Part shown: positions 1 to 17,900 of the stretch, piece by piece
How the letters are laid out: each line of letters begins with the position of its first letter
Position numbering within the stretch: the stretch's first letter is position 1
IMG/VR virus record: IMGVR_UViG_3300042383_001364
Coordinates: 1-28,253 of that record
Strand: one strand, 5' to 3'
Length of the DNA stretch: 28,253 nt
DNA from: a virus
Notes under the pieces: generated by a model
What the model saw: the letters and a program-made list of their open reading frames with translations, nothing else
Told to the model about the DNA's origin: nothing
The model's database searches: none
Program-made: the position numbers and the translations under genes

Positions 1-3000
1 GCATTAACTCTTTATTTATGTCTTTCCCGCTACCTTTTCTCGCGGTAACGCCAATTGATTGATAAACATCTTCCTGATTGTCGGGCAAAGCGTTAATAGT
101 ATATTCTAATGTTTCAACAAAATTTAATGGCGGAACTTCGTAGCCTTTTTTTAGAGCATCATCTCCTGCTGCTAATTCTTCGTTTTTTAATTCTTCCCGC
201 AAAACCTCTTTTGTTTTGAAGCCAACATCAGCTACTGCTGGCGTGGCAATTTTAACAGCGGTCATGCTTGAAAGCGGAATAAACTCGCGTGGCGAATGTG
301 CCTGATATTTCAAATCCAACATGGTGTCCAGCCAGCCATATCCGCCATTCCGCATGTATCGCCTCAATTTATTGAGAGCTTTTCCTGTGTTGTGCTGCAA
401 AGCGTAGGCGTCATCGATAGCTTTGATTTTTTGATCCTGTGTTTTTGCCTCAACAACATTTCGAAGACCTTCTGCAATATTGCCCCAATTTTTACCACCG
501 TATGAAGGATTCCACCTTCCTTCTCTATATAGCGTTTCGGCGATAGATGCAAAATTAGACAAAGAAACGCCTGTTTCCTCAAGAGCTTTTCTTACTGCCG
601 CATACGAAATTCGATATGATTTCTCGCTGTCTTTCGTTATTCTTGCAGCGCGAGACTCTGGCTGAATGCTCTCCACATATGTTTCCATGTATTTAGGAAC
701 TTGTGTGCTATCAAGAAAATTATATGCATCCAGAAGTTCTTTATATTTCTGCATGAAAGGATTATTCATCAAATAATCAAGATCAGCAGGCTGGCGGTTG
801 TCATAAACATGGCGCAATTCCGCCGAAACGGAAAACAGCAAAGCGTCTTTCATGTGCTGTTGTGCTTCATTACTCAATTTCTCAACAGCGTCATTTAAAT
901 TATCGATGTAGGCTTCATAGCGTTTCCCGCGAACGACACCTTCTCCTTCATTTATCAATGGAACAAAACCTTTCGTGTAAGGATCAGAATACAGATTCCC
1001 CAAACCCGCAGAAGTTGTCAAAAGATAGAAATCCGCCATCAGCGTTCTCGGGTCTTTAGGAATCGAATAACGCACATACGGCAAAGAAGCGATTCCGCTT
1101 CCTGTGAATTGCGTGGCTTCTCGCAAATCTTTATCTACATATCTTGAATATGCGCGAGTGTCTTTAGCGTTTGATATTGTGTCGAACGCTGACTGCAAAG
1201 AACCGGAATTCTCAAATTTGCTGAACAACAACTCTTGTGTGTTGTGAATGGCGTTATTCAGCCTATCCATGTAAAACAGTTTGTCGTTTCGCGTTTTTGC
1301 ATTTTCGAGATCGCCAATAAATCCTGTCACTAAATTCCACAGGTCATTTCTTCGGCGCATATCGCTCCTGTAGGTGCCTTTCATCAGGCGGTCGAGCGCT
1401 TCCCCCGTATTCGCCTTTGCAAGCGCGTCTGGAGTAACAAACGAATCAACCCTTCCCCTACGAATATATTTGTCGATTTGTTTTTTTACCAAATCTTTGA
1501 AAACATCCAAATAAAGAGCTTTGTATTTGTTTAGATATTCAGATTGCAATTCTTTGCCGTAACTATTGGTCGGCTCTGGCTCGGTGCTGATCCAGTAAAG
1601 ATTGTATAGCGCGCGAGGCGTTAGGCGCGTTTCAGCCTCTTGCCCTTCTTCCAAACCATATTCTTGGGATGGCTTGGATGTTGGCATGTATTGTATGTCA
1701 GGAGAAATTCTGCTCAGTTTTGAATACCCTTCGCCTTCCCATTTGCCGCCGTCCCAAGCAATTTCTTTGAACAATCTATCTCTCGCCTTTGATGCTTCTG
1801 GCGAAACGCTGTGTGACGCTATAAATTTTTTCCCATATTTTTGCGCGTATTTAGCAATCTCCCGATATAGTGCCTGCCCGTAACCTTGCCCTCGGTATGG
1901 TGTCGCTATTTCTGTATAGTCAACGCTGACGGCAGTTGGTCTGTCTTCGTGTTCTGCTCGTAATTCTGCGTATCCAATTACATTTTTACCGAGTTTTTTA
2001 TAGCGGCTATTTTCAATTGAATCCCGAATTCTGCTGCGAGTGCTGCCTTCTGGCAAACTAATAATTATTCTTGCGACATCAAAAAGATCTATATCTTTAC
2101 CTTCCTCAATACTAACTTCGTATTCGGGAAGTTGTGCTGCCATTTCCGCAAGTGTTTTCTGATCTGGAACAGGCATGTATTGTATGTCCGAAGCCATGCG
2201 ATTTGTTTCAGGCAAATCAGCCTGTTTTTGTTCAGCGCCAACCTCATTTTCTTCTTTTATTTCGGGTTGGATTGGCTGCTGGGTTTTCGCTTTTTGCGCC
2301 TCGTATTCCTGCAGAGCCGCTTCAGTTGGCGCGTCATAATCAACAACCGATTCCCCGTCCTCCATAACAGGAACGAATTCTGGATCGAAAATAGAAGTTA
2401 CGCGAATTGTTGGATTTTCTGCATCTCCGCCAATCATCAAAGTTTCAAATGGGCGAAGTTCATTTGCGTTGCGCAATTCAAGCTCCAATTTTTCAACATT
2501 GTCCTGCGCGATTGCTTTACGGATTTTTGTTGCTGTAACTGTTCCCCCAATATTGTCCATGAACTGCTCTGGCGTTTGTTCTCCAGCCAGAGCATTGTTA
2601 ACAGGCATATAGTTGATTTTTGCCAATTCATAATTGAAGGGCATTTTTTGTTGCATGCTCTCTTCAAATTGAGTTATGCGATCAAGCCTGCGCGACCTTA
2701 CAATAACATCCAGAGAGTCTTTTCCTTTTCTCCTCGGCAAAGTTGACCTTTCTGGATTCGCGTCTTTTGTGTCTTTTGTGTAAACATTAAAAAGGTCATT
2801 GATCTTGTTTTTTTTGCGCCGAGCAATGAAAGGGTCAGGGTCCAAATCGGTTTCTCCAACATGCCCTTCGGCGTGGTTTTTCAATAAAACCATAACGCTA
2901 TCCCAGAACCTTCCCAAATCCCCGTTCCATGGTGCCAAATTCATTTTTTTCTGCGCTGCCCAAGCGTCGGCTTTATCTTTCATTCGCGAAACCGACATTG

Positions 3001-6000
3001 TGGTCACAAGGAAATTTCCATCTTTTGAAAAATGAAAACCAATCGGTATTTCGTCGCGAATGCGCGGAGATAATGCTTTGTATTTTCCGTTCAACAATGC
3101 GGGTTGATACTCAAAAAGCATCCTTGTCCCGTCTTTTCGCCTTAAAATATCATTGGTGAAAATAATCAGGCGTTTGATTTGTGGCGCGACAATATTATTT
3201 GGCAAATTTAATACAGCCTCAACTTGCGACTTGCTTAAAGCGCCCCTGTATTGCCCGCTCCCAATATCTTGCATCTTTGTTCCGGAATCGTCTTCTGGCG
3301 CTGTGTCAAAAGCATTTTTGATCATCGCCGTCCTCGCAGTAATCCGCCGCCTCATCTCTACAGGAGAGAGAATAATCGGCGTTCCGTCTGCTTTCCGAGC
3401 GACTCGCGTATCGACAGTCAATTTTACATTGTTCGGCAAAGAGCTAAACAAATCGTCCGAACCGACATCCACGGGATTTCCGTCTGAATCAATGAGTTTT
3501 CCATCTTGGGTTGTGTAGACATCCAAAAACGGATTTATTTGAGCGTTTGGCGGAACAACAATTTCTGTAACAGTTCCGTCTGGCGCGGTCGCTTTGACAA
3601 TTACCTCAGTTTCGAAAATTCCAATATCCTTGTTTTTGTCTTGAAGAATTCGACTGTCTAAAACTTTAATCCAAGGAATATCCGGCTCATTAACTTCCTC
3701 TCCGCGATTATAGGTCAGCGTCTGATTAAGATCGCGCTGCCCTCTTTGATATTCGCGAAACATCGCCAGCATTTCTGGCGTAAATTTCATGTTTAGGGTC
3801 TCGCTAACGCCTCCGTTATTATCAAAAATAACGCCAGCTTTACGCAAACCTTCTTTGATTACTTTTAGCTTTCCATTTCTTGTGGCAACCTCAAGCCAAT
3901 CCATGATTGCCCGTCCTTGGTCGTCTATGCTGGCTCGCAATCCGTTATTATAGTCTCCGGATGTTGACGCCAATTCTGAAATAATCTCTTCTTTGATGTA
4001 GGTCCGCAATTTGCCAACATTTCCACCAAATGAAGCCAAAAACGATGCGCCACCATCAGCGGGAGACATCTTTTTGGCATATTCGATAGCATAGCGGTCC
4101 AAATCCGCGTCTGAATAATACCCTGACGGAACTGTTTCGTAGGTTCCGTCCAGATTTCGGATTTTTTGATCAAAAAGAAAATTGCGAAGCGGTTGCTGTA
4201 GCTCTTGAACTTCTTTAAAACCATTCAGACCATGCTGAATTTCATGCGAAACGACATCCCTAAAATTAAATCCTCTGTTTGTTAGATGTTTAATCAAATC
4301 GGCATTGACAACAACAGTTGCGCCCTGTTGATTTACTTTTCTTAGATGAATGGGAACGCCCTGCGGATTTTTTTCATCTACTTTGTCTTCCTGTATAGCA
4401 AATCCGCGAGAATTCTTTGCCTGATCAACTTCTGCGCGATACCTATTCACCAATTCGGTTGCCTGTTGAAGCGCAACAGCGTCCCCAAAACCCATATTAT
4501 CGATTACCCGCTCGGCTTCCCGCAGTTTATCTCCATACAGATTCCGAATAAATGTGTCGGCGTCAGCGTCTTGCAATACAACCAATCGGAAGTTTTGCAA
4601 GCCGGACGCCGCAACAACTGCTTGAGCTTGGTCGAGATTGTCTAAAAAAGCTAACTCAACCTGTCTATCAAATTCTTTTTGTGTTTCTGGCGTAGCTTTA
4701 TCCAGCGCGGCTCTTTGATTTTTTGCGCCAACTATTTGTGTTTCGATAAACGCGGAATCTGCCGGATTTATCGTTCTTGCTTTCTGTTTTTCAAGATCAG
4801 CAATATGAGCGTCCAGCGCAGATTTACGCTTATCAATACTCGACAAAGAAGTTAATGTTTGTCTGAATTCTGGAGTTATCTGCGCCCTAAAACGCGCCAG
4901 ATCAGCGTCCTCGTCTCTGCGTATTTGCGCTGGGTCTGGAATTATCAACTGACTGATTCGTTCTGATGCAGTCAAAGTTGGGTCTATAAGAGTCTGTGCG
5001 CGTTGCGGAATTCGTGCGCCAGCCAATCCGCCAACCCCCCACCCATAACCAAACATATATCCGCCTTGTTCGGCAGTTTCTATGTCTGGAAGTCCCATTA
5101 GCGTGTTGAGCGCCGCGCCATTTACCGCAGGCTGAATAATCGCGTTGCTTTGCCGAATCATCCAATCTGCTGTTTTTGCTCTGGCGATGCCGCCCCTGCC
5201 CTCTGCGCCAAACAGTTTTCGCGTAAATTCTGAACTTTCCGCGTCGCGTCCTGCCCGTTCAAGCATTCCGCGTCTTCCCGCTGTTCCGCCAACATCGACT
5301 TGCCGCAAGACATCTTTCACAACTCGCGCCGTTCGCGTTGTTGGCTTGGCAATTGCCATAATAGGAATTGCGGCGGTGTTGACCGTGCCTTTGACCCAAG
5401 TGTCAGGATCATTGACAGTATATTCACCAATTTTTTTTGCGGCTTCTTGTGCAAATTCGACGCCTTTTTCAACGCCTGCGGAAGTTTTTTCGATACCGCC
5501 AGCAACATATTTCAAGCCTTGCAAGGTCTTGTTTGTAGCTGCATCTAAAGCCTTCCCTGTTTTTTTCCCGATAAATTCTGTTGCTTTGTTTGCGCCGGGA
5601 ATCGCAACAGGCGAAAAGAATTCTCCTGCCGCGCTAATCTGCTGATCAATTTCTTCTGCCGTCAAACCAGCTTCTTTGGCGAGTTCCTCATACATCTGCC
5701 CTGCCATGGCAATCTCTTCGGGACTTCCGCCTTGCGCTTTAACAACTTGCGCGGCGAGCGCTTTCAGCAAATCGTTCTCACCAATGAGCGCAGCGGCACG
5801 GTCCGGATTCGCCTCAACCATTGCTCGCTGGATTTCGCGCATTCCTTCGCGAAGTTGGTATTTTCTCCAGCGTTCTTCTTTGGGAACGCCAAACGCCTTG
5901 TCTGTAACCGATGTCCCATACGCGGCTCCGCGAATCCCAGTATAAACCATTTCCTCAATATCAGTCGCGGTTCCGATCGCAAACGACCGCCAAGAATTGA

Positions 6001-6427
6001 TAAAATCCTCTCGGATTTTTTTCCCTTCTTCTGGCGTGTATGAGGTCCCGTATACTTTTTCGCCAGCTTTGACCTGACTTGGGTCAGCGGTTATTGCTGG
6101 CAACGCGAGGAGCGGTTTAATTGCGCCTTTCCACGCGAGTTTTGCAGCGCCTGTGCCTATATCTGCAACTGCTTTTTCAAGCCCAGCTGCCGCTTGCGGC
6201 AAATATTCATCAATTTGTTGCAGTAATCCTTTTTTGTCTTCTTCCTCCCAAAGTATTCTCTCCTGTTCTTCGGTCAGTTTTTCGCCGCTTTCTTTCAGTT
6301 TTTTTAATTCACGCGGTTCTTTGACATGAACAAGATTTTCTGGAAGCGTTTCCTCTGGCGGGGACCAAATTTTTGTTTCGTCTGGCGGAGACCAGACTTT
6401 TGTTTCTTCGGGTGGTTGCCAAGCCAT
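1..6427 (-). CDS. Giant polyvalent phage protein (zincin + GNAT), C-terminus off the window
   Basis: Open without a stop from the ATG at 6427 to the left edge: at least 2142 aa. The start overlaps the upstream stop by one base (TAATG). Visible in order: three tandem 9-residue repeats around WSPPEET (residues 3-29); charged helical sequence; a Gly-rich stretch containing MFGYGWGVGG; a zincin-type site SHEIQHGLNG with H728, E729, H732 and possible third ligand E813, E814 or E818; an unassigned middle; a linker INYMP (1271-1275); a linker DIQYMP (1414-1419); a GNAT acetyltransferase domain with the acetyl-CoA loop RGQGYG (1512-1517); a second DIQYMP (1577-1582); then a long alpha-helical region. 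Large multidomain proteins of this kind are known from phages as polyvalent proteins, thought to be packaged and injected with the DNA. Being last in a virion-gene block fits that. The targets of the protease and acetyltransferase are unknown, and ejection is inference. Confidence 0.85.
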   Translation of the reverse strand, partial: MAWQPPEETKVWSPPDETKIWSPPEETLPENLVHVKEPRELKKLKESGEKLTEEQERILWEEEDKKGLLQQIDEYLPQAAAGLEKAVADIGTGAAKLAWKGAIKPLLALPAITADPSQVKAGEKVYGTSYTPEEGKKIREDFINSWRSFAIGTATDIEEMVYTGIRGAAYGTSVTDKAFGVPKEERWRKYQLREGMREIQRAMVEANPDRAAALIGENDLLKALAAQVVKAQGGSPEEIAMAGQMYEELAKEAGLTAEEIDQQISAAGEFFSPVAIPGANKATEFIGKKTGKALDAATNKTLQGLKYVAGGIEKTSAGVEKGVEFAQEAAKKIGEYTVNDPDTWVKGTVNTAAIPIMAIAKPTTRTARVVKDVLRQVDVGGTAGRRGMLERAGRDAESSEFTRKLFGAEGRGGIARAKTADWMIRQSNAIIQPAVNGAALNTLMGLPDIETAEQGGYMFGYGWGVGGLAGARIPQRAQTLIDPTLTASERISQLIIPDPAQIRRDEDADLARFRAQITPEFRQTLTSLSSIDKRKSALDAHIADLEKQKARTINPADSAFIETQIVGAKNQRAALDKATPETQKEFDRQVELAFLDNLDQAQAVVAASGLQNFRLVVLQDADADTFIRNLYGDKLREAERVIDNMGFGDAVALQQATELVNRYRAEVDQAKNSRGFAIQEDKVDEKNPQGVPIHLRKVNQQGATVVVNADLIKHLTNRGFNFRDVVSHEIQHGLNGFKEVQELQQPLRNFLFDQKIRNLDGTYETVPSGYYSDADLDRYAIEYAKKMSPADGGASFLASFGGNVGKLRTYIKEEIISELASTSGDYNNGLRASIDDQGRAIMDWLEVATRNGKLKVIKEGLRKAGVIFDNNGGVSETLNMKFTPEMLAMFREYQRGQRDLNQTLTYNRGEEVNEPDIPWIKVLDSRILQDKNKDIGIFETEVIVKATAPDGTVTEIVVPPNAQINPFLDVYTTQDGKLIDSDGNPVDVGSDDLFSSLPNNVKLTVDTRVARKADGTPIILSPVEMRRRITARTAMIKNAFDTAPEDDSGTKMQDIGSGQYRGALSKSQVEAVLNLPNNIVAPQIKRLIIFTNDILRRKDGTRMLFEYQPALLNGKYKALSPRIRDEIPIGFHFSKDGNFLVTTMSVSRMKDKADAWAAQKKMNLAPWNGDLGRFWDSVMVLLKNHAEGHVGETDLDPDPFIARRKKNKINDLFNVYTKDTKDANPERSTLPRRKGKDSLDVIVRSRRLDRITQFEESMQQKMPFNYELAKINYMPVNNALAGEQTPEQFMDNIGGTVTATKIRKAIAQDNVEKLELELRNANELRPFETLMIGGDAENPTIRVTSIFDPEFVPVMEDGESVVDYDAPTEAALQEYEAQKAKTQQPIQPEIKEENEVGAEQKQADLPETNRMASDIQYMPVPDQKTLAEMAAQLPEYEVSIEEGKDIDLFDVARIIISLPEGSTRSRIRDSIENSRYKKLGKNVIGYAELRAEHEDRPTAVSVDYTEIATPYRGQGYGQALYREIAKYAQKYGKKFIASHSVSPEASKARDRLFKEIAWDGGKWEGEGYSKLSRISPDIQYMPTSKPSQEYGLEEGQEAETRLTPRALYNLYWISTEPEPTNSYGKELQSEYLNKYKALYLDVFKDLVKKQIDKYIRRGRVDSFVTPDALAKANTGEALDRLMKGTYRSDMRRRNDLWNLVTGFIGDLENAKTRNDKLFYMDRLNNAIHNTQELLFSKFENSGSLQSAFDTISNAKDTRAYSRYVDKDLREATQFTGSGIASLPYVRYSIPKDPRTLMADFYLLTTSAGLGNLYSDPYTKGFVPLINEGEGVVRGKRYEAYIDNLNDAVEKLSNEAQQHMKDALLFSVSAELRHVYDNRQPADLDYLMNNPFMQKYKELLDAYNFLDSTQVPKYMETYVESIQPESRAARITKDSEKSYRISYAAVRKALEETGVSLSNFASIAETLYREGRWNPSYGGKNWGNIAEGLRNVVEAKTQDQKIKAIDDAYALQHNTGKALNKLRRYMRNGGYGWLDTMLDLKYQAHSPREFIPLSSMTAVKIATPAVADVGFKTKEVLREELKNEELAAGDDALKKGYEVPPLNFVETLEYTINALPDNQEDVYQSIGVTARKGSGKDINKELM
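6347..6421 (-). repeat. Three 27-base tandem repeats at the start of the giant gene
   Basis: Residues 3-27 of the giant protein read W-(Q/S)-P-P-(E/D)-E-T-K-(V/I) in three successive copies, the last incomplete. The DNA copies differ by several bases. It makes a Pro/Glu/Trp-rich, probably flexible, N-terminal extension. Confidence 0.85.
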
Positions 6428-7413
6428 TATTTAGGTTTTTGTCTAAGTTCAAGTTCGCCTGTCGTCGGATTTTTCCAATAAAAAGGACCAGCTGGAATTT
6501 TTAGATATTCCTCTTGATTTGTCACAACAGGATAATTTTTGATTGGCGTCATTTGAGTCTGTTTTTCGCCAGTTTCATATTCCTTTCGCATTTTTATCTC
6601 TTCTTCCTCAAGAATTTTCTTTTGTTCCTGTGTTTTGCGAAGGATGTCAGACAAATTGGTTGTAAATTGATCAGATCGCATGTCCGGATCGATTGAACCT
6701 TGCAAAGAAGCCAACAGACCAAGCTCTTTGTCTGATAAAGCGCCAAGACCCGAGGAGCCTGTTTTTGACTCCGCTTTCATCTTCATCAGCTGCTCGAAAG
6801 CAACATTGCCTTGCACATTTTTTACAAGAATGCGAATATCATTAGCATCTGTGTCGAACGGTAAATATTGAACATAGCTCCCCAATTTCCCAACATCCGG
6901 CAGAATTCCTTTATCTGCCAAATTTTGAATCGCTTGGATTTGTTTTTCCATCGTTCCAAGCATTTCTTTTCCGGTATTAATCCTATTTAGTTCAACGGAC
7001 AAATCCGGTTTAGGAGCGTATTCTACAGTTTTTTTGCCGTCTGCATATTTTACCGATTGGACTTCCATGTTTTTCCGCTCTGGATCGGGCGGAATCAGAT
7101 AATAATATGGCTCGCGAGTTCTTTCGTCTATTTCCGTTACAAGTTCAACATCGTCGCCAGTCAATTCTTTATATTTATCTCTCGCATACGCAGCGTCCCC
7201 TATTCCCGCATACGGAGCGCCAATAAGTTCGTCCAGAACTTCGTATTTATTGAGGTCGCGAGGTTTTGGCTGATAGGTTCCAGCCGCGATTTTTGCGGCG
7301 ACTTGCTCGAAAATATCGTTTTGCGGTTTTTGCGCAGTTCCAAGCGCCGGATACGGCGTTGGGCTTGGAGTTGGCGCGGGGATTGCGGCGAGGGCAGGAG
7401 TTGCTGGTGGCAT
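6427..7413 (-). CDS. Putative internal virion protein, 328 aa
   Basis: 328 aa. The N-terminus is rich in Pro and Ala (first 30 residues) and the rest is mostly charged helix. The central part reads KMKAESKTGSSGLGALSDKE, followed by LASLQGSIDP. From memory, this kind of segment (a Ser/Gly turn, then GALS-x-x-E and a Gly-x-Asp loop) occurs in internal or structural proteins of podovirus-like phages. The C-terminus has YPVVTNQEEYLKIPAGPFYW, similar to the short 'PVV-x-x-EEY-x-x-(I/L)-P-x-G' tail module seen on other phage virion proteins. The gene follows the previous one with a single spacer base (TAAAATG) and overlaps the giant gene by one base, so the three are probably translationally coupled. 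No enzyme motif is visible. The structural role is inferred from these motifs and position. Confidence 0.75.
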   Translation of the reverse strand: MPPATPALAAIPAPTPSPTPYPALGTAQKPQNDIFEQVAAKIAAGTYQPKPRDLNKYEVLDELIGAPYAGIGDAAYARDKYKELTGDDVELVTEIDERTREPYYYLIPPDPERKNMEVQSVKYADGKKTVEYAPKPDLSVELNRINTGKEMLGTMEKQIQAIQNLADKGILPDVGKLGSYVQYLPFDTDANDIRILVKNVQGNVAFEQLMKMKAESKTGSSGLGALSDKELGLLASLQGSIDPDMRSDQFTTNLSDILRKTQEQKKILEEEEIKMRKEYETGEKQTQMTPIKNYPVVTNQEEYLKIPAGPFYWKNPTTGELELRQKPK

Positions 7414-7414
7414 T

Positions 7415-7945
7415 TTAATAGTATCCGGCTTGTCTTGCTAATTCTTTTGCTTTTTCAACATCACCGCCAGCTTCTGCTAAAAATTCAGCCGCGATGTCTT
7501 CTGTAAGAATCTTTTCTCCGGAAGGAATGTCATTTCCTCGCGTGTTCCAGTATCCTTGGGGTCGCGCTTCTTTCGGCAATGAATCATCCATGCGTCGCTG
7601 TATCTCATCGATTTTAGTTTGCGTTAGTTGATTTTTCAGAGAATCATACTGTTGATTATCCCCAAACCGAATGCCAGCAAGTTCTTTTGCTCTTTCGTGT
7701 TCAGTCTGCGATTTTGCATCAGCGAGTTTTTCGGCTCTGGCGCTTTTCATCGCTCCAGTAACGCTTCCCATTGCCGAAAGCGCTCCATCTGCCAAACCTT
7801 TCCACATATCTGTTCTTCCTTGGTAGAAGGCTCGCGCAACAACCGATGGATCATGTTCAATGAACTGGAATTTCTCGGGAACGGCAAAATTGAAACTACC
7901 GCCGCTCCGAAGTGGCGCAAGATTTGCGAGACTCGTTGATTGCAT
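7415..7945 (-). CDS. Putative internal virion protein, 176 aa
   Basis: 176 aa. The N-terminal third is mixed (MQSTSLANLAPLRSGG), followed by a small-residue helix (GLADGALSAMGSVTGAMKSA) that could be membrane-active or pack against other helices, then a charged coiled coil to about residue 130. The C-terminus ends AAEFLAEAGGDVEKAKELAR, followed by QAGYY. This short helix-turn-helix with an AGGD turn resembles C-terminal pieces I associate with other phage virion proteins. It is preceded by a strong ribosome-binding site, GGAGGA, which lies inside the last codons of the upstream gene. It sits between the FGGx-tagged proteins and the 328-aa protein, so I place it with the internal head proteins. 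No catalytic motif is seen. Confidence 0.72.
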   Translation of the reverse strand: MQSTSLANLAPLRSGGSFNFAVPEKFQFIEHDPSVVARAFYQGRTDMWKGLADGALSAMGSVTGAMKSARAEKLADAKSQTEHERAKELAGIRFGDNQQYDSLKNQLTQTKIDEIQRRMDDSLPKEARPQGYWNTRGNDIPSGEKILTEDIAAEFLAEAGGDVEKAKELARQAGYY

Positions 7946-7947
7946 AA

Positions 7948-8529
7948 TTAGGCTCCTCCAAAAACTAATCCAGTTGTATTTGGCGGGGAAAAGGATTGGT
8001 TGAGTTGACGATTTGTCCCGCCCGATTCTTCGTTAATTGTTTTTGTTGCCGCTGCCATAGCGCTACGATTGTCTGGAGTTGCCGCTGCCCCCGTTGTTGA
8101 TTTTGCGGCATCAATTTTCGGCGCAGAATAACCGCTTGCTTGATAAGTTGACTGATTTGATGGAACGCCAGAACTTTGAACTGATTGCGCAGCAGAATCT
8201 AACTCTTGACCTATTGAGGTTTGATTTGCGAGAGCAAGTTCTCTTGCGCGAGTGGATTCCATGTCAATTTGGCGATTTCTGGCGGCTTCTTCAGCGGCTT
8301 TTTTCTCTTCTTCCAGCGCTTTTTCAGCTGCTGCTAATTGTTTATCAATTACAGCTTGCTGTTGCGCCATTTGCTGTCGAAGCGCATCCGCTTGGCTCGT
8401 TTGTGCGTTATTTTGCGCAATATCCTTTTTAGGAACCTCGACTCGCAGACGCCCATTGTATAAATAATATTTTCCGCCGCTTTCGTTGGCGGTTCTTCCT
8501 TTGTATTGTCCAGATGTAACTTTTGGCAT
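7948..8529 (-). CDS. FGGx-tagged coiled-coil protein 4 (193 aa)
   Basis: Last of four consecutive proteins sharing a C-terminal peptide. The N-terminus (MPKVTSGQYKGR, then KYYLYNGRLRVEVPKKD, about residues 1-36) looks like a small beta-domain. Residues about 45-105 are an Ala/Gln/Glu-rich coiled coil (QQMAQQQAVIDKQL, AEEAARNRQI). A low-complexity Ser/Ala linker follows. The end is SGGTNRQLNQSFSPPNTTGL followed by VFGGA, closely matching the ends of the two genes before it. The start is one base after the previous stop (TAATATG). Function unknown. The position between a YkgJ gene and giant virion protein genes suggests a small virion component, possibly in the head interior. Confidence 0.8.
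   Translation of the reverse strand: MPKVTSGQYKGRTANESGGKYYLYNGRLRVEVPKKDIAQNNAQTSQADALRQQMAQQQAVIDKQLAAAEKALEEEKKAAEEAARNRQIDMESTRARELALANQTSIGQELDSAAQSVQSSGVPSNQSTYQASGYSAPKIDAAKSTTGAAATPDNRSAMAAATKTINEESGGTNRQLNQSFSPPNTTGLVFGGA
7954..7959 (-). promoter_or_regulatory. GGAGGA: Gly-Gly codons of FGGx protein 4 and ribosome-binding site of the 176-aa protein
   Basis: The Gly codons of VFGGA are GGA GGA, ending 8 bases before the ATG at 7945. Confidence 0.78.
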
Positions 8530-8530
8530 A

Positions 8531-9058
8531 TTACACTCCTCCGAAGGTTAAACCAGAAGTGTTTGGCGCTTGAAACTGATTTTGCTGTTGATTTGTTCCG
8601 CCACCACCAGCATTCAATTTTTGCGCCATCACAGCTTGAGTTGTTTGCGTTAATGGAGTTGGCGAAAACTGTTGAGCGGGAGCTGGCTGTTGCTGATTTT
8701 TCCCATAAGCACCAACTGTAAACGGATTCATAGCTGCATACTGTTGCGCAGTTGCGACTATTGGTTGCGCAAGCGTTGACGCAAGTTGCTCATCGATCAT
8801 TCCTCGATTTGCATCTGCAAACATTTTGGCACGCATGGACTCGGCGTTTGCTTGATTTACACGCTCGCGCTCCATTGCGGCAGCTTTATCTGCCTTTTGT
8901 TGATCTGCAAGCTGTTGTTTTAATTTGTCGATTTCCGCTTGCGATTGCTTTATTCCGGTTTGCGTTGCTGGCGCACCGCTTGTTTGTTTTTGTGTAAGTG
9001 CAGTCAGCGGAAGTAGTTTTCCGTTGAATCTGCCGCGACTTCTTCCTCTTCCGCCCAT
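8531..9058 (-). CDS. FGGx-tagged coiled-coil protein 3 (175 aa)
   Basis: 175 aa starting MGGRGRSRGRFNGKLLPL, a basic Gly/Arg N-terminus that could bind nucleic acid. Residues about 37-80 form a coiled coil (QAEIDKLKQQLADQQKADKA, AAMERERV). Then comes Ala/Gln-rich linker, and the end is GGGGTNQQQNQFQAPNTSGL followed by TFGGV. The similarity to neighbours is concentrated in the final ~25 residues. The middle differs in length and composition. Four bases separate it from the upstream stop, and GGAGGA of the upstream FGG codons lies about 10 bases before its ATG. Function unknown; probably the same class of virion component as its neighbours. Confidence 0.8.
   Translation of the reverse strand: MGGRGRSRGRFNGKLLPLTALTQKQTSGAPATQTGIKQSQAEIDKLKQQLADQQKADKAAAMERERVNQANAESMRAKMFADANRGMIDEQLASTLAQPIVATAQQYAAMNPFTVGAYGKNQQQPAPAQQFSPTPLTQTTQAVMAQKLNAGGGGTNQQQNQFQAPNTSGLTFGGV
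8537..8542 (-). promoter_or_regulatory. GGAGGA: Gly-Gly codons of FGGx protein 3 and ribosome-binding site of protein 4
   Basis: The Gly codons of TFGGV are GGA GGA, ending 7 bases before the ATG at 8529; the stop TAA lies between them. Confidence 0.78.
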
Positions 9059-9062
9059 ATGA

Positions 9063-9629
9063 TTATGTTCCTCCGAAAACCAGTCCGCTCTGTTGGGCGG
9101 CGAGGTTTTGTTGGTTGGTTGTTCCTCCGGTTTGTTGGTTTAATGCCTCTGCAGTTGTTGCTGCAGGGTTCAAAACAGACATTTGCCCAAGCAAATTTGA
9201 TGGCGTCTGTGGCAGCGTCCCGCTTGCGGCTCCCAATTGTTGTAGAGCATCAGCTTTGCTGGTTGCAAGATCGAAACCTCCTGTTGCGGTTTCCGCCCCG
9301 CTTGAGATTGCTTGTTGATATTGATCAGAGGCGGCTTGGTCTTGTAACTGTTGTGTCGTATTAAGACCTGTAAGCTGGCTGGCAATACTTTGTTGGTTTT
9401 GCGCTGCCGCTTGTTGCGCCGTATTTGACTGCGTCTGTATAGCCGCATCTTTTGCCGCTTGTTCTGCGGCTTTCCTTTGAATGTCCGCTTGTTCAAGTTG
9501 ATATTTCAACATTGCCATTTGAGCTTCCATTTGTTGTTGCATCATTTGCTGCTGCATTTGCATCATAGCAGCTTCATGTTGTTGTTGCCGTCTGATGTCT
9601 CCAGAGCTTGGTCCTCCTCCGCCTCCCAT
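9063..9629 (-). CDS. FGGx-tagged coiled-coil protein 2 (188 aa)
   Basis: I place the start at the ATG at 9629 (MGGGGGPSSGDIRRQQQ), not at the in-frame ATG at 9668. The 9629 start has an AAGGA site 10 bases upstream, matches the MGG starts of its neighbours and removes an overlap. The protein has 188 aa. Residues about 12-65 are a very Gln/Met-rich coiled coil (HEAAMMQMQQQMMQQQMEAQ), continuing as an Ala/Gln helix. The end has GGTTNQQNLAAQQSGL followed by VFGGT. This copy lacks the (F)xxPNT part of the tag seen in the two genes after it. Function unknown. The composition resembles phage internal head or ejection proteins, but there is no recognisable domain. Confidence 0.78.
   Translation of the reverse strand: MGGGGGPSSGDIRRQQQHEAAMMQMQQQMMQQQMEAQMAMLKYQLEQADIQRKAAEQAAKDAAIQTQSNTAQQAAAQNQQSIASQLTGLNTTQQLQDQAASDQYQQAISSGAETATGGFDLATSKADALQQLGAASGTLPQTPSNLLGQMSVLNPAATTAEALNQQTGGTTNQQNLAAQQSGLVFGGT
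9069..9074 (-). promoter_or_regulatory. GGAGGA: Gly-Gly codons of FGGx protein 2 and ribosome-binding site of protein 3
   Basis: The two Gly codons of VFGGT are GGA GGA, and they end 10 bases before the ATG at 9058. Confidence 0.75.
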
Positions 9630-9638
9630 ATTGTTTTT

Positions 9639-9643
9639 TCCTT
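9639..9643 (-). promoter_or_regulatory. Ribosome-binding site AAGGA that decides the start of FGGx protein 2
   Basis: AAGGA lies about 10 bases before the ATG at 9629, in the only 25-base gap of the FGGx block. It favours 9629 over the in-frame upstream ATG at 9668. Confidence 0.75.
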
Positions 9644-9654
9644 TCTTGTTTGTG

Positions 9655-10179
9655 TTAAATTCCGCCAAAAGTTATATCACTAATTTTAGGCGGCGTGAAC
9701 TTGTTTGCCAATTGTGTTTTTTCATACTGTGAAGATTTTGGCAAAAAAGAATACTCCACAGAGATTGCTGGTTTGCTGGAAAAATTTTGCATGCCGCTAT
9801 CTGCTGCCGCAAGTTGCGATCGAATATTCTGCTGTTGCGCAGCATTTTTTGCTTGCAAGTCAGCCGCAAGTCGCGCTTGAGAATCTGCGGTAGTTTTTTG
9901 ATTCTGTTGCAAAACAGACATCATCGCAGGATTTTGGCTCTGCTGTTGCATCATCTGCTGCATTCCAGAAAAATCATATGGTCTATAAGCTGATTGTTTT
10001 GGACCTTGAAACATTTTAGCCAACGCTCCGCCATAATTAGGATCAAGAGTGAAAGGTTTTCTCCCTCCCCCCAGCGTTGCTCCCGGCAAAATATTCATAG
10101 GATCCATTATATTTAATGGATCAATAACTCGCCGGATCGGTTGATATACCCTGCCTAATGCTTTTTGAAATCCTCCCAT
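9655..10179 (-). CDS. FGGx-tagged protein 1 (174 aa)
   Basis: The start is taken at the ATG at 10179 (MGGFQKALGRVYQPIRRV), one base after the upstream stop (TGATATG). A longer in-frame reading to 10290 would run 110 bases into the upstream gene. The N-terminus is basic and could form an amphipathic helix. A Pro/Gly-rich stretch follows (DPLNIMDPMNILPGATLGGG), then a Gln/Met coiled coil (about residues 70-125, SGMQQMMQQQSQ) and a C-terminus FTPPKISDITFGGI. This is the most divergent of the four tagged proteins, but it keeps the F-x-P-P, the hydrophobic pair and FGG. Its two Gly codons are GGC GGA, not GGA GGA, so the peptide is conserved here without forming a good ribosome-binding site. Confidence 0.78.
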   Translation of the reverse strand: MGGFQKALGRVYQPIRRVIDPLNIMDPMNILPGATLGGGRKPFTLDPNYGGALAKMFQGPKQSAYRPYDFSGMQQMMQQQSQNPAMMSVLQQNQKTTADSQARLAADLQAKNAAQQQNIRSQLAAADSGMQNFSSKPAISVEYSFLPKSSQYEKTQLANKFTPPKISDITFGGI

Positions 10180-10180
10180 A

Positions 10181-10456
10181 TCAAATGCCTTTCTTTTTTC
10201 GCGCCTCAAGACAAAGTTCTGAGCCAACAACAAATTTTTTACACGCTTCGGGTCTGCAATTATAAACAGAACAGTTAACAGAGACGCCAACTTCTCCGTT
10301 TAGGGCGATACACCTGTTGTTGTTGGTTTTCATTAACGGATAGTCTTTGCGAATCCAGTTGTTCGGTATTCCCGCTGCATCGGTTTTGTCTCTCTTGAGG
10401 ATTGGCCACGACCATTTGTAGCTGCAACAGGCTCCACAGGATTGGCAGTCGAACAT
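10181..10456 (-). CDS. YkgJ-family cysteine-cluster protein
   Basis: 91 aa. The N-terminus MFDCQSCGACC gives C4, C7, C10, C11. Further on come C49 (RCIAL), C62, C67 and C72, with the family signature Y-x-x-RP-x-x-C followed by F (residues 65-75). This arrangement, CxxCGxCC then C-x-x-L and an RPxxC-x-x-F ending, is that of the YkgJ family (Zn or Fe-S cluster proteins of unsettled biochemical role). The start must be at 10456 because the first cysteine motif begins at residue 4. That makes the first 124 bases overlap the end of the PAPS-reductase-like gene in another frame. The pairing suggests that the two act together or are moved together. No obvious ribosome-binding site precedes it. Confidence 0.85.
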   Translation of the reverse strand: MFDCQSCGACCSYKWSWPILKRDKTDAAGIPNNWIRKDYPLMKTNNNRCIALNGEVGVSVNCSVYNCRPEACKKFVVGSELCLEARKKKGI

Positions 10457-11298
10457 ATTGATTTATTTTTATTCCAGTCAACAGGTTTAAACCCAAGGTC
10501 CTCAATAACAATGTCTTCATATGGGGCGTATGCGCTTATATTTGAAATTTGAGACTTCAACTTTGGGCAATAAACATATTTTCCAGCATGCCTGTCAACA
10601 CAATTTAGACAAGTCGGAATAAAATCGGCATTCATCGACTTGTCGGGATTGTTTTGCCATTTCCCAGAAACTTTCAAATACCGCGTTGGGTCGAGCGGAA
10701 CACCTTCTTCCTCCAAATACTGATAAACATCTTCATCCGTCCAATCCCGCAATGGATACAAACTAATTGGGGAGCCTTCGGCATATCGAATGTGTGTGGT
10801 TACCGCAACTCGACCTTTGATTAAATCTGTGTCTGTGTTTTTCGTTCCAATATAAACAGACTCCCAAATAAAATTGAATGTTCCCGTTGGTCTTTGAAGA
10901 AAATCGTCAACCGCGCACAAAAACTTCTCGTCGCCTTTTGGTCTTTCTGTGCCGAGAGACATAACCATGCATTTGCTTCCCCATTGAAAATATTTCAACA
11001 AGTCGAAGCGCACTTCTCCGGTTTCGACATCTGGTCCATCAGCAAGTGCCATTTTAAGCGCAGGATAGTCATAAACATTCAAATCCCATTTTTTAATCAG
11101 CATGTCTGAATATTCATAACGCTCGCGAAATTTCGGTTCTCTAAATTGAACAATTGGAAGATCAAGGCATGCTTTATATTTTAACAAATGCAGCATCGCC
11201 GTGCTGTCTTTTCCTCCAGACCAGAACACAACAGCTTTAGGAAATCTTTTATTCCAGAGATTTATTAATTCTACTGTTTTATTTACTAATTCTTTCAT
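10333..11298 (-). CDS. PAPS-reductase-like (adenine nucleotide alpha-hydrolase fold) enzyme
   Basis: 321 aa. The PP-loop SGGKDS at residues 27-32 after a hydrophobic strand (AVVFW) identifies the phosphoadenosine phosphosulfate reductase / ATP pyrophosphatase superfamily. Residues 230-247 have TCLNC (C230, C233) and later YCPKL (C244), a cysteine set like that in many phage-encoded members and possibly a metal or Fe-S site. 'ISLYPLRDWTDEDVYQYL' is the usual family segment after the substrate-binding region. The last 41 residues (281-321) overlap the YkgJ gene and look like a non-conserved tail. The real reaction is uncertain: cellular relatives reduce PAPS or activate sulfur for nucleic-acid modification. 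It is the only clear metabolic-type enzyme in the window. A 20-base A-rich gap, without a ribosome-binding site, precedes it. Confidence 0.88.
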   Translation of the reverse strand: MKELVNKTVELINLWNKRFPKAVVFWSGGKDSTAMLHLLKYKACLDLPIVQFREPKFRERYEYSDMLIKKWDLNVYDYPALKMALADGPDVETGEVRFDLLKYFQWGSKCMVMSLGTERPKGDEKFLCAVDDFLQRPTGTFNFIWESVYIGTKNTDTDLIKGRVAVTTHIRYAEGSPISLYPLRDWTDEDVYQYLEEEGVPLDPTRYLKVSGKWQNNPDKSMNADFIPTCLNCVDRHAGKYVYCPKLKSQISNISAYAPYEDIVIEDLGFKPVDWNKNKSICSTANPVEPVAATNGRGQSSRETKPMQREYRTTGFAKTIR

Positions 11299-11318: not shown

Positions 11319-12182
11319 TTATATCATTGCCGCTGCTGCAAGACCAACTGCGCCGAGTGCAGCGCCACCAAGAATCCCTGCCATTTGTTGATCTCCCTGC
11401 GACTTTGCTCCTGCCATCTGATTGTATGCGTTGGCATCTCCCAACACAGAATTTATCAACATTTCTTGATAATCGCGTGTTGCCTGATTGCTTGACTGTA
11501 TTCCAGACAGGGTGCTTCCCATCATTTTTTCCATCCAATCTTGATAGGATTGCCCAAGACCGAAAACATTTTGCAATTGCTGTTGTTGCCATGCGTTTTG
11601 CATGCCAATGTTTCCAGCTTTTGTGGTTTCCTGCATTGTGATTGCAGCTGAAGGATCAAGCCCACCCATCGGCGCTTGCTGTTGAGCCAGCCACGCCTGT
11701 TGCAATCCTATATCCTCCTGAATCCGCCTCCTTCCAGCTTCCGTTGTTGCATCGAAAATGGCAGACCTTCCAACTGTGCTGGACGGATCAATTCCGCTTG
11801 CGGCAACACTTGCCAAACCTCTCTCCCTCGCCCAGCGGTCCATAAAAGCGGGGAAATTTTCTTCAGATGTTGCATCTTTTATCCGCTGGCTAATTCCGGC
11901 TCGCATTTGTGCCGTCGCAGGGTCTGTGTATTGCTCGGCTTTGCGTGAACGCAGTAGATTGCCAAGACCAAATTCATGCGCTTGCCTCGAAAGCGCATCA
12001 ATGTCTGTCTGTTGCATGATAGGAGGCATTTTGGAAGCAAGTTCCAAATTTTTCCTATGCAATTCCATTGCGCCACCGCCCATGTCTGTCGCCGCACGCA
12101 AAAATTCCCATGTCATGCGATTGTCGGGCGGCGGAATCATATTCGCCACATTATAAGTTCTTGGTGCTGGTGCGCTTCCCAT
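11319..12182 (-). CDS. Putative internal virion (ejection-type) protein, 287 aa
   Basis: 287 aa, mainly alpha-helical, Ala/Gln/Met-rich. The middle reads ERGLASVAASGIDPSSTVGR, then long Gln-rich helices (LQQAWLAQQQAPMGG, MQNAWQQQQLQNVFGLGQ). The C-terminus is a hydrophobic Gly/Ala segment, GILGGAALGAVGLAAAAMI, which could insert into a membrane. This layout, a helical body with a small-residue hydrophobic end, is common in internal proteins located after the nozzle gene in podovirus genomes. It is the only gene in the right half of this block with a textbook ribosome-binding site (AGGAG, 12188-12192). No homologue can be named with confidence. Confidence 0.75.
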   Translation of the reverse strand: MGSAPAPRTYNVANMIPPPDNRMTWEFLRAATDMGGGAMELHRKNLELASKMPPIMQQTDIDALSRQAHEFGLGNLLRSRKAEQYTDPATAQMRAGISQRIKDATSEENFPAFMDRWARERGLASVAASGIDPSSTVGRSAIFDATTEAGRRRIQEDIGLQQAWLAQQQAPMGGLDPSAAITMQETTKAGNIGMQNAWQQQQLQNVFGLGQSYQDWMEKMMGSTLSGIQSSNQATRDYQEMLINSVLGDANAYNQMAGAKSQGDQQMAGILGGAALGAVGLAAAAMI

Positions 12183-12833: not shown

Positions 12834-14972
12834 TTATTCGCAAGGATTTTGTGTGCGATATTCTTGTGCTGCGGCTATCGCTGCTTGTTCGGCAAGTTTT
12901 GAAGCCTCCGCTTCTGCGTGTTCATAGTTGATAAATGATAAAAATGAAGCTGTAGCTGTTGCCGCAACTGTTGGAGTCAAAGAGGGCGCAGGACATTCCA
13001 AGTTAATTGTTTTTGAAATTTGCGCATACCATGATTTTTGAGAGCCATCAGTTTGAGCATAACGGTCCGGCAAAGAATCTATTACTATGTTCTCCCCTCC
13101 CTGACCCACGACACAATATTTTGTTTCGTCTTTTTGCGGAACGCCCAATGCTTTTGTGGCATACGGGTCCATAAAAACGCGAATAATTTCGACGCCAAGC
13201 TGACCGCACCATTCAATTAATATTGAAAAAGCCTTGTCAATATCAATTGAGTATTCGTTTTCACAAGTGGTGTAGTCGGCGGTTCTTTGAGCCGTTTCGG
13301 TTATTAGCCTTCGGTATTGCGTCTGCAAATACCCGAGGTTTTGAATCTCTTCTTCATATGGCGTGTCTCTCCATTGAAATTCGTCAGTAACCGCGAGTAG
13401 CCGTTTATGCAAAATTTCTTTGTATTTGCCTTTACTGCCACGAAACGAAACCGAAACATCTGTTATGCCGCCAATTTCAGATGTTTCTATTTCAGCATAA
13501 ATGAACTGTTTGTAATCCATTCCATCGCCCATTTGCGCTGTTTCAATCTGGCTATAAATACGATTTTTTTTCTCTTGCGTCGATCCGTCTGGAAGTATTT
13601 CAAGGTAACTATCGTATTTTTGCGGAACGAAACACTCCCACAAATGATTGTATGAACCATCTGTTGTCGCGGCGTAATCCACAGAAAAATGAAAGCATCG
13701 CTGTTGTCCGCCAACTGTTCCCGTTGTCCATTCTATCGGGCGAGTTCCCGTCCAAACACCACACCACGCAGGCGTTCGTGTTGATGTCCACTCTGACGCT
13801 GCGGCATAATCCAAAACCATTGTCTCTGAATTGAGGCGTTCAAGATGGGGAACGCTGATCAAAATGTAATTTTCAAAAGAAGCGGAACATATTTTTGTAT
13901 TATCGCCAGCCATGAACCTTTTAGTCCGCGCCATTTCGACATCTTTATACAAAACCTGCGACGACAAATATGAAGCTGCCGCCACATCTGCCGCAACCAG
14001 TCCCCCTTGCGAATACCACCACATTTGCCCAGCTTGAAACGCAATGCTTTTCCCCGCCACGCATCCGACAGTTGGATATAGAGTATTTTGGAAGTTTAGC
14101 GTGCTTGTCCATGCAGACCTATCTAAAATTCCGCTGGCAAGTGAAAAAGTAGCTCTGTCTGTAAAAACGATGAGTCGTGTAGAGGTGTCTTGACCAACAT
14201 AAGACACAAGACCTGTTATTGGTCGAGAAAAAGCAAAATCCCCTCGCCCTGCTCCTGATTTCCTTTCTTCCCAAGATGTCGGGTCTGCGAGATCAGATGC
14301 CAATACAATATTTTTGTTGGCTATCCACAAACGATTTCCGGAAAATGCCATCCAAGTTCCCGTGGGAATATCTTTAGATTGTGAACCTGTTTTGTTTGAG
14401 CCATCCCAATAAGCGGGTGCGCTTATGCCATCTTGAATAAAAACAACACGATGAGACGGCGTAACGATTTCGTTTTTACCCGTCGAGATGTTCGCAGATT
14501 GCGTTGCCAATGCAAAAACAAAATTTTCAACATCTGGGTCCATTTGAACATTGGACAACTTATACTCATTCCAATCTTTTGGCTGTTCCAATGGAAAAGG
14601 AGCATAATATATCGATCCATTCACCGCAAAGACAATATACGGCAATTCATCGGCAACAATTCCCTCTCCGTCTGGTGTAAATATTTTTGCCTTGGTTGCA
14701 ATTGTTACACCATTAACTTCAGAAATACTTGCCGCAGTTTTTTGGCGATTCGCTGCGAAGAAAATTCCGCCTTGAAAATTTCCTGCTGGCAATGACAAGC
14801 GCATCGCCATGCCGGGACGGGTTTGCGCCAATCCGCCTCTTACTTGAATGTTTACGCCCCATTTAAATTGATTTTCCGGCAAAAGCCACGGATTGCGAAC
14901 AGAATTAACACCAGCAAACCATCCGCTGGTTACTTTTTGAATTCTTCCAGATGTTACTTGAGGAGATTTCAT
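12834..14972 (-). CDS. Tail nozzle protein (T7 gp12 / P22 gp10-like)
   Basis: 712 aa. The N-terminus has GWFAGVNSVRNPWLLPENQF, then NIQVRGGLAQTRPG (about residues 17-54). This 'G-V-N-x-x-x-x-P-x-x-L-x-x-N-x-x-x-x-x-N-x-x-x-R-G-G-x-x-x-R-P-G' pattern is typical of the podovirus tail nozzle / DNA stabilisation proteins. The body is beta-rich with repeated aromatic blades (for example GTWMAFSGNRLWIANKN, TRLIVFTDRATFSL), as expected for a beta-propeller nozzle. It is directly downstream of the adaptor-like gene with a one-base overlap (TGATG), the usual order adaptor then nozzle. The protein closes the tail tube and keeps DNA in the head. The C-terminus ends in an Ala/Glu-rich helix. Length fits the family. 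Confidence 0.85.
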   Translation of the reverse strand: MKSPQVTSGRIQKVTSGWFAGVNSVRNPWLLPENQFKWGVNIQVRGGLAQTRPGMAMRLSLPAGNFQGGIFFAANRQKTAASISEVNGVTIATKAKIFTPDGEGIVADELPYIVFAVNGSIYYAPFPLEQPKDWNEYKLSNVQMDPDVENFVFALATQSANISTGKNEIVTPSHRVVFIQDGISAPAYWDGSNKTGSQSKDIPTGTWMAFSGNRLWIANKNIVLASDLADPTSWEERKSGAGRGDFAFSRPITGLVSYVGQDTSTRLIVFTDRATFSLASGILDRSAWTSTLNFQNTLYPTVGCVAGKSIAFQAGQMWWYSQGGLVAADVAAASYLSSQVLYKDVEMARTKRFMAGDNTKICSASFENYILISVPHLERLNSETMVLDYAAASEWTSTRTPAWCGVWTGTRPIEWTTGTVGGQQRCFHFSVDYAATTDGSYNHLWECFVPQKYDSYLEILPDGSTQEKKNRIYSQIETAQMGDGMDYKQFIYAEIETSEIGGITDVSVSFRGSKGKYKEILHKRLLAVTDEFQWRDTPYEEEIQNLGYLQTQYRRLITETAQRTADYTTCENEYSIDIDKAFSILIEWCGQLGVEIIRVFMDPYATKALGVPQKDETKYCVVGQGGENIVIDSLPDRYAQTDGSQKSWYAQISKTINLECPAPSLTPTVAATATASFLSFINYEHAEAEASKLAEQAAIAAAQEYRTQNPCE

Positions 14973-17900
14973 CAGCTAATAAAAACATCTGTTCCGTCGC
15001 CATAAGTTATATTATTTATTTGCGGGGGAGTCATGGCGTGTCCGTCAATGTATTCTTGCTGGTTTTTCAAATAATTCAAAGCGATTGCCCAATACCTTGC
15101 GGCTTGCTCGGCAAAATCTTTGTCTTCCATGTCAACCGCGTGAATTGCCGCAATTATTGCGCGTTCGTGTTCAATCGGAATATAATCGTAAATAGAAGTA
15201 ATAAATGGCGCAGAAGGTCGATATGCGATGCGAACCCATGCACAGGGTTTCCCAATTCTAATCCTGCGATACTGTGGATTTATCTCCGAAGGATGATAGC
15301 GCCCAATTAGCGTCATATCATTAGATCGACCCAAATCCCAAGCATATAAAGAAACATATCCATCGGTTATTGGTTTCTCAATTTGCGAGACTGTTTTAAC
15401 TACAACTTTTTCATCAATTGCGTCAATGTAGAACTCGCTTTCAGCAGAATTTCCTGGAGTTAAATATTTTACAATATTTGCTACACCTCCAGATTGAGCG
15501 CTTTGTTTTGTCGTGTAAAGCTCGAAAGAGTTTTCGTCAACTCTTCGCACATAATACAAAACTCCAGCGCTAAGACCGCTTGGCAAAGAATCTCCGTTTG
15601 CTGATCGCACAGAAACAGCTTGTCCGGTTGCAAACAAACTATGGCTGCACACAATTTTACTTGATGGTTGCGGGGCAACTGTTCTTTCAATATCCAATAT
15701 AAGTTGTCCTGTTCCTCCGTCCCCTAAAATTATTTGATTGTTGTTTGTGTCGAATATTTGAACGGAATTCCCAACAAGTTTTATTTTATATGAAACCGCT
15801 TCTAAAATTGGAGACGGCAATGTTCCGGAACTACGAAAAGAAACAATTTCATCATCCTGTAAATAATTTACTGAATCTGGTTTTATTAAATTGTTATACG
15901 GCAAAGAACGAACCGGATACCGCAAAGCAAAATAGGTTTGTCCTGTTCCGAAAGAAACAACTTTAATTAGATCGTTGTCAACTTCGGCAATCTGCGCAAC
16001 TCGATCAGAGATTTTAGTCAGAAAATATTGTGTTACTCCGTTGTCAATTGGAGGATTAGTTGTCGGAAGTTGAAAATCCGTTCCAAAATATATTCCTTGA
16101 CCTGATGGAATGTTTGAAAAATCACCTCTCCAGCGATTTGTGAAACTTACACCAAATGAGCGAGACAATACAGTATAAAAAGTTCCGCTTCCGCCGCCTG
16201 TTAAATTAAATTTTGAAAAATCTGCATTTTTGATTGTGAAAACACCAGAATTTGTATCAAGCGGAGCTTCTGCCCGATACGCCGTTCCAGACACAATTGG
16301 ATTTGGAAGCGTTCCGGTGCTTGAAAATTCAACGAACACACCCGTTGATGGCGTCAAAACTACAGCTGGACTTGATGTGTAACCAGTTCCAGAAGTTATA
16401 ATATTTAGACCAACAACTTCTCCGGAAAAAACTTCTCCAGCGGTTGTTGCGTTCGGAGTTCCCGAAGGAACAGCAAAAGTAAATGTTAATCCCGCAGGGT
16501 TTGGAACCAATGCTTGAATTGTTCCAGTTGCTGGGGTTGCTGGGCTTCCAGTTACTGTATAATAAAATTGCGTTGGGTTTATTACGGTAATCGAAAAAGT
16601 TCCGTTATACTGAGCTTGCGCGGCTCCAACAATTTCAACAATTTGTCCTGTGGAATAATTGTGAGGCGTTGAAGATGTAACAATGGCTCTCGTTGTATTA
16701 ATTAGATCGCTTCTTGCTATAGTGACATTTGTTGATAATGTCGGAACTGTTAGAACAGTTTTATCGCCATTGAAAGGCACCGCAGGCTGGCAGTTCAGCA
16801 ATGTAACGATAGAATTTTTGTTGAAACCATGCGGAAGCGAAGTTGTCGCGGTTGCCGTTGTCCCAGATACTGATATAGAAACAAGATCGATCACCGAATT
16901 GTTTACAACAGCTTGGGCAGTTGCTCCGGAACCGCCACCGCCAGATATTTGCACCTGCGGCGATTGCCGATATCCGCTTCCTCCGGAAATTTTCGTGAAA
17001 TACGAGACAAACGATGTTTGTATCGTTGCGGACGCTGTTGCTTGCGCTGGCGACCCCCCAGTCGGAGCGGCGATAGTAATCGCGGGAGGATCAGTATACC
17101 CAAGTCCGGGATTCGTAATAATAATCTGTTCTAATTTCGTGCTTGTAGTATTGATAATCGCGTAGCCTGTTGCTGTAACGGCTTGCTGATTTGAACCAAT
17201 CGGCGGATCGGGAGGGTCGGAAAATGTTACTGAAGGAACTGTGGCGTATCCGTTTCCCTGCGCTGTGACTTGAACGGCTCGCACGGAACCAGTAACAACG
17301 GCTTGGAATGAAGCGCCGGAACCGCTTGGGGTCGAAATATTTAGACCTGGCGCTGTTACTTGGGATGTCTCGCCAGAGCGAAAACTTGAAGCGATTAGTT
17401 TTACAACAAAATTAGTTCCTGTTCCGGCATCAATAAGCTCAACAGGATTTACGGCAGAGGTAGGAGTTGAGGCAAGAGCATCAGCTTGCGATTCGTGTAA
17501 AGTGATTGTAAACGAATCTATAATGTTAACAAAATAATTTGCGTTCGCGATGAGCGGATTTGGGAGAGTTCCTCCAGATGTGAATACTTGCACTTGGTCG
17601 CCCTGCAAAAAATAATGCTCAAGTGAAAATGTTAGTTTTGTTTCTGGAACAATTTCTTTGCGAAGATCGACTAAAATTGTATCTGTGGTTCCTGTTGTGT
17701 AAACTGGATTTGTAGAATTTTGAGCATCGCTCAAAGATTCGTAAATTTCCATGCTGGTTCCATTAATCAGATTTCCAAAATAGGTGACCTTTTCTTTCAA
17801 CGGCGCAGGAAGCGCCTGCCCAGCAGGAAACGCAATCGGATTTGCGGCGCTCAAAGAAATAATTGGCGTCCCGCTAAAGGATAGAGCCGTTACAACTTGA

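Follow-up and report, generated by a model that had tools for sequence, protein, structure and literature searches.

How short-tailed phages choose which internal proteins to package and eject is poorly understood, and the signals found in the literature are N-terminal and were studied singly. The viral IMG/VR record IMGVR_UViG_3300042383_001364 raises the question of what role is played by a peptide tag shared by the C-termini of four consecutive, otherwise divergent proteins (positions 7948-10179). The window analysed here is the whole record, 28,253 bases, which is likely a fragment and has its main genes on the minus strand. The original prediction held that the tag looks like a recognition peptide, one reading being that it directs these proteins into the procapsid or docks them on a common partner such as the portal, the core or a giant protein encoded nearby.

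A C-terminal tag at one gene position

The four minus-strand open reading frames (ORFs) were present as described, and all end in FGGx (SDITFGGI, SGLVFGGT, SGLTFGGV and TGLVFGGA in proteins 1-4). The genes and their tags are:

9655-10179, minus strand: tagged protein 1, 174 residues, body family F1 (21 members in relatives), ending NKFTPPKISDITFGGI
9658-9705, minus strand: C-terminal tag of protein 1, with GG coded GGC-GGA and a gap of 25 nucleotides (nt) from the stop to the next ATG
9063-9629, minus strand: tagged protein 2, 188 residues, body family F0 (the commonest, 67 members)
9066-9113, minus strand: C-terminal tag of protein 2, with the upstream part worn and SGLVFGGT kept
8531-9058, minus strand: tagged protein 3, 175 residues
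8534-8581, minus strand: C-terminal tag of protein 3 (NQFQAPNTSGLTFGGV)
7948-8529, minus strand: tagged protein 4, 193 residues, with a different N-terminus (MPKVTSGQYKG)
7951-7998, minus strand: C-terminal tag of protein 4 (QSFSPPNTTGLVFGGA)

The MGG start of three of the four proteins and the longer shared ends that had been quoted (TN-Q-NQ, PNT-x-GL-x-FGG, TNQQN and SGLVFGG) were also verified. The tag of protein 2 scored 18.6, compared with 32-42 for the other three. Divergence of the bodies, meaning the proteins without their tags, was borne out by a pairwise identity of 0.22-0.36 against 0.19-0.23 for shuffled bodies. Because this is barely above the shuffled level, the four proteins are not recent tandem duplicates. 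Proteins 3 and 4, with a body identity of 0.36, may be distantly related.

Relatives were found in viral contigs with the conserved 712-residue virion protein (12834-14972) as the query. This yielded 210 relatives, of which the best 80 showed 64-77% identity. A second query added another group, with identities of about 56-66%; complete-looking relatives are about 60-63 kb. Tagged protein 3 and the gene for a 328-residue protein (6427-7413), used as direct search queries, found nothing. All 20 dereplicated loci that were found via the 712-residue protein and contain the complete interval carry 1-4 tagged genes there, compared with 0/140 other complete ORFs. In a set found partly via the tag itself, 31/31 loci were tagged, as opposed to 0/196 other ORFs. 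Across five complete relatives, an [FYL]GGx end was present in 11/42 interval genes and in 0/293 genes elsewhere. One locus (L006) has five consecutive genes, two of them with degenerate ends.

Alignment of 183 tags gave a consensus of about 16 residues, N(-16) x F(-14) x h P(-11) x x x [GND](-7) [LI](-6) x F(-4) G G x-COOH, with a column information of 3.9 bits at F-14, 3.8 at P-11, 2.9 at L-6 and 4.4 at F-4. FGGx-type ends were part of the selection, so the invariance of GG is not independent evidence; F-14, P-11 and L-6 were only loosely required. The initial observation is thereby confirmed and was understated, in that the conserved unit is larger than FGG. A scan of viral contigs with the tag pattern found at least 119 stretches, and almost all of those inspected were ORF ends in the same neighbourhood. 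Across 257 Gb of cellular genomes the same pattern matched 6 times, always within short open frames and at about chance level. Together with the absence of such ends among the 293 and 140 other ORFs, this rules out a chance or compositional motif.

Variants and accompanying features were also seen. Three adjacent genes in L318 (16048-18412) carry an extended version, P-N-x-x-[GQ]-I-Q-I-G-[DE] onward, with the ends KFGGS, NRFE and KLGGS. MGG starts are concentrated between the 712-residue gene and the giant gene, in tagged and untagged genes alike (20/42 vs 4/293 elsewhere; G001, G003, G004, G008 and G009).

Glycine codons and the next gene's ribosome-binding site

Three of the four ends in the window read TTY-GGA-GGA-NNN-TAA, which places GGAGGA 7-10 nt before the next ATG, as in a well-placed Shine-Dalgarno sequence. 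The GGAGGA at 9069-9074 in the tag of protein 2 also serves the gene that starts at 9058 as its Shine-Dalgarno, and those of proteins 3 (8537-8542) and 4 (7954-7959) lie 7 and 8 nt before the next ATG, respectively. FGG might then be the mere translation of a ribosome-binding site that overlaps the 3' end of the preceding gene. This double role of the GG codons had escaped the original prediction. Codon usage in the relatives points the same way, as GG was coded GGAGG in 103/155 tags with the next ATG within 12 nt of the stop and in 1/28 otherwise, against a baseline of 32% for internal GG pairs; the Fisher p of 1e-10 for this association is too optimistic because the sequences are related.

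However, the tag is kept where codons of this type and a near start are both missing. Other codons are used by 27/28 far-start tags and by 52/155 near-start tags, and the codons vary throughout (F as TTT in 34 and TTC in 33; GG as GGAGGA, GGCGGG, GGTGGA, GGCGGA and others). Protein 1 of the window uses GGC-GGA, which cannot be the Shine-Dalgarno of the next gene because the next ATG is 25 nt past the stop. Furthermore, F, P and L are conserved up to 14 residues upstream, and other genes of the same genomes lack GGx ends. The tags with other codons rule out the Shine-Dalgarno as the sole cause, and an account of the tag in these terms has next to no chance of being right; it remains as an additional role of these bases. 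The codon counts point in a clear direction, namely that the peptide is kept regardless and that, where a gene follows closely, the GG codons would be chosen as its ribosome-binding site. Six bases serving as both peptide tag and ribosome-binding site would make a neat case of overlapping codes.

Proposed docking of the tag and other explanations

The tag is conserved at the peptide level, restricted to one gene position, carried on different bodies and co-varying within genomes. Tag identity was 0.41 within a genome and 0.36 between genomes (5/5000 permutations), with body similarity not clearly raised; gene conversion at the tag is an alternative explanation for this likeness. The proposal of a tail-end recognition peptide on divergent neighbours gains support from the shared gene position in all complete-interval loci, together with the different bodies, the variable codons and the within-genome likeness.

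We give roughly even chances to the reading of the tag as a short linear docking motif at the C-terminus, which would load internal or ejection-type proteins onto a shared part of the virion. Each tagged protein would consist of a variable body, often with a basic or Gly-rich N-terminus and with a long Q/A/M-rich helix, followed by a flexible linker and the tag. The tag would bind one conserved particle component, and 1-5 interchangeable internal or ejection-type proteins would be retained in the procapsid or neck until they exit together with the DNA; the GG codons would have their second, independent use as the Shine-Dalgarno of the next gene. In the AF2 model of protein 2, a helix at residues 9-110 is followed by a low-confidence tail (pLDDT below 50 over residues 163-182), such that the tag is predicted to lie in a disordered segment following a long helix, where a docking peptide would be expected.

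Tagged proteins range from 88 to 615 residues and have little or no mutual body similarity; without the tag, the bodies fell into 44 groups under a strict criterion. Searches of PHROG, Pfam and PDB sequences gave no convincing match for them, T7-type core and ejection proteins included. No enzymatic or recognisable domain was found in the large bodies, and the N-terminal domain of family F7 had no match when searched in phages. Some members share more than the tag, since family F0, that of protein 2, keeps a second motif, ATGGG[YF]D-ALxNLG. This motif, the MGG start and the Q/A/M-rich helix, along with the arrangement of the tagged genes as neighbours in a row and the body likeness of proteins 3 and 4, would also fit an expanded, fast-diverging family in which the C-terminus is a paralogue remnant or self-assembly element that packs against its own kind. 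Yet the tag also occurs on bodies of 408-615 residues and on other N-termini without detectable relation, and it is predicted to be disordered in the one model. We consider self-assembly rather unlikely.

If the tag docks proteins onto the virion, its partner may be sought among the products of the surrounding genes, which are:

14972-18709, minus strand: large virion structural (neck/tail) protein, 1245 residues, presumed adaptor-like, C-terminus HAMTPPQINNITYGD
12834-14972, minus strand: 712-residue conserved virion protein, presumed nozzle-like, PHROG 511 'internal virion protein'
11319-12182, minus strand: 287-residue MGS protein with a hydrophobic C-terminus, in a gp14-like position, untagged
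7415-7945, minus strand: untagged 176-residue protein, after the tagged set
6427-7413, minus strand: 328-residue protein, matching PHROG 2534 'released from the phage upon host infection' (E 9.9e-8)
2-6427, minus strand: giant protein, at least 2142 residues, cut by the window end, with a GNAT domain; untagged in complete relatives

In all loci examined, the tagged genes lie between the tail/neck genes, so named by position, and the gene of the largest internal protein. The match of a neighbouring gene to the ejected-protein family PHROG 2534, which is also matched by the G001 relative of the 328-residue protein, favours docking. As for the partner, we infer that the tagged proteins are in the virion and that the tag binds a component in the portal/neck region rather than the giant protein. 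In the relative L155, the 647-residue gene before the giant gene and the visible start of the giant protein (486 residues compared) have no BLAST match in other relatives, whereas the tags are intact. This disfavours both the giant protein, on which docking had been suggested, and the product of the gene before it.

A different candidate came from a search with the tag profile over the last 35 residues of all non-tagged proteins in seven genomes. The C-terminus of the neck/tail protein (HAMTPPQINNITYGD) ranked first in 7/7 genomes, and it was also first among 39 conserved families over the full length. The spacing agrees between P-x-x-x-N-I-T-Y-G-D in the neck/tail protein and P-x-x-x-G-L-T-F-G-G in the tag, giving P-x-x-x-[GN]-[LI]-T-[FY]-G in common. 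This look-alike is suggestive, a lead from sequence comparison rather than a result, and the idea that the tag and the neck/tail C-terminus share a binding site is a more specific and weaker guess than a portal/neck partner as such. A shared portal/neck site is attractive because the C-terminal helix of the T7 adaptor embraces the portal stem (PMC6702177).

The ejection-type gene neighbourhood would equally suit a tag that acts after ejection instead of in assembly, for example by fixing proteins to a host factor, in the outer membrane or in the nozzle; in T7, the nozzle comes to contain a channel built of gp14 and gp6.7 after ejection (PMC11784390). The co-variation of tags within genomes and the strict synteny are more readily explained by a phage partner than by a host one, though they do not settle the matter, and we judge action after ejection to be quite unlikely. 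Still less probable is a processing signal, with a phage or host protease cutting at or near GG-x. The invariant GG with one free last residue would suit such a signal, and the giant protein contains an HEIQH sequence that resembles a zinc-protease motif. However, conservation, including that of spacing, reaches 14 residues upstream, the removal of a single residue would serve no evident purpose, no such protease was identified, and degenerate FGS and FGK ends exist. Processing is accordingly very improbable.

Several points weigh against docking onto a virion part. Presence of the tagged proteins in the virion is presumed, and analogy underlies the assignment of gene positions and roles; the labels adaptor-like and nozzle-like go by gene position alone because no profile match to T7 gp11 or gp12 was found. 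Some orthologues of protein 1 end in FGS, FGK, FSGK or NF, so the last residues of the tag are not strictly required. The Q/A/M-rich helix and MGG start shared by many bodies may mean that the whole group descends from one ancestor. The neck/tail look-alike is a post hoc observation, and its score was reached in 24/300 and 19/300 permutations of whole proteins, which is not significant (6 and 4 of 3000 for C-termini only). Finally, the part of PMC8402733 that treats P22 places the procapsid-binding regions of gp7 and gp20 at the N-terminus and has the scaffold as a requirement.

A fuller version of the docking reading is a modular cargo system of a widespread lineage, in which a conserved site in the neck/portal or procapsid recognises one C-terminal tag, so that 1-5 unrelated and exchangeable proteins (88-615 residues) are loaded into each particle for injection, the tag possibly imitating the neck/tail C-terminus at that site. 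We hold this version to be doubtful but worth keeping in view.

Neighbouring genes and known loading systems

The genes of the window are transcribed in the order collagen-like fibres, spike, neck/tail structural protein (14972-18709), 712-residue virion protein (12834-14972), small genes, 287-residue MGS protein, a PAPS-reductase-like gene, a CxxCxxCC protein, the four tagged genes, two further genes and the giant protein. The lineage, of short-tailed type, looks uncultured because the 712-residue protein and, from the relative G001, the terminase (assigned by PHROG) and the putative portal had no match in 50,697 phage records; the giant and neck/tail proteins had partial domain matches only. 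The GNAT acetyltransferase domain of the giant protein lies at residues about 1479-1538. A stretch of 124 nt (10333-10456) is shared, in different frames, by the PAPS-reductase-like gene (10333-11298) and the CxxCxxCC gene (10181-10456). The long form of the former (318-321 residues) was also found in several relatives; in others it is short (277-282 residues) and ends near the next start.

The neck/tail protein has large beta-rich insertions and varies from 1161 to 1713 residues across relatives (e.g. L178 2587-7728), and many virion structural, baseplate and fibre PHROGs have matches in its central part. Its AF2 model was poor (mean pLDDT 46) and gives no more than a hint of helices at either end and of a C-terminal tail that is not helical. 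Profile comparison and PDB searches gave no support for homology of the neck/tail protein to the T7 adaptor gp11, nor for that of the 712-residue protein to T7 gp12. The 287-residue MGS protein had no match in a PDB sequence search.

A search of open-licence papers for a common C-terminal tag on phage internal proteins found none. Among the nearest phage parallels are terminal regions that direct internal proteins into the head and work on foreign cargo. The capsid targeting signal of P1 DarB, modelled on the T4 IPIII signal, is N-terminal and directs foreign cargo into the head, according to the relevant part of PMC9024508. The T4 IPIII signal permits proteolytic processing, to go by a title cited in PMC8402733. 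Unlike these N-terminal myovirus signals, the shared element described here is C-terminal and stands on several neighbours, and targeting by it would be by analogy.

The P22 ejection proteins gp7, gp16 and gp20 resemble the docking reading in that several internal proteins of a short-tailed phage are loaded during procapsid assembly; no shared tag is described for them in the P22 part of PMC8402733. In crAss001, virion cargo is held at the portal, tail barrel and muzzle, and the sections of PMC10172136 on this cargo mention no common terminal tag; the gene sets differ.

In T7, gp6.7 bridges the portal barrel, gp14 and gp15, and gp7.3 is anchored near the adaptor/nozzle junction (PMC11784390). 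Homology of the tagged proteins to these small internal or ejected proteins (gp14, gp6.7 and gp7.3) was not found, and the tag was absent from gp14, gp7.3 and gp11 on inspection. T7 gp6.7 ends in SAFGGKK and has SVEFGG at residues 31-36. A relation through the SAFGGKK end was rejected, as the FGG end is not kept in gp6.7 relatives. In most relatives of T7 gp6.7 (L330-L339; T7 gene 6.7 itself is L329 365-631), a motif resembling [GS][IV]x[FYW]G[GADE] is kept around residues 31-36. In T7, the FGG at residues 34-36 begins a gp15-contacting loop. The motif has a short resemblance to the GLxFGG of the tag.

In encapsulins, C-terminal peptides load different cargo proteins into an HK97-fold shell. 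These are bacterial compartments, not phages, and the tag would resemble their peptides as a C-terminal loading signal.

If the docking reading is true, the tag would provide a searchable mark for internal proteins in uncultured phages. Loading would be testable by one tag-swap, and the tag may offer a handle for protein delivery.

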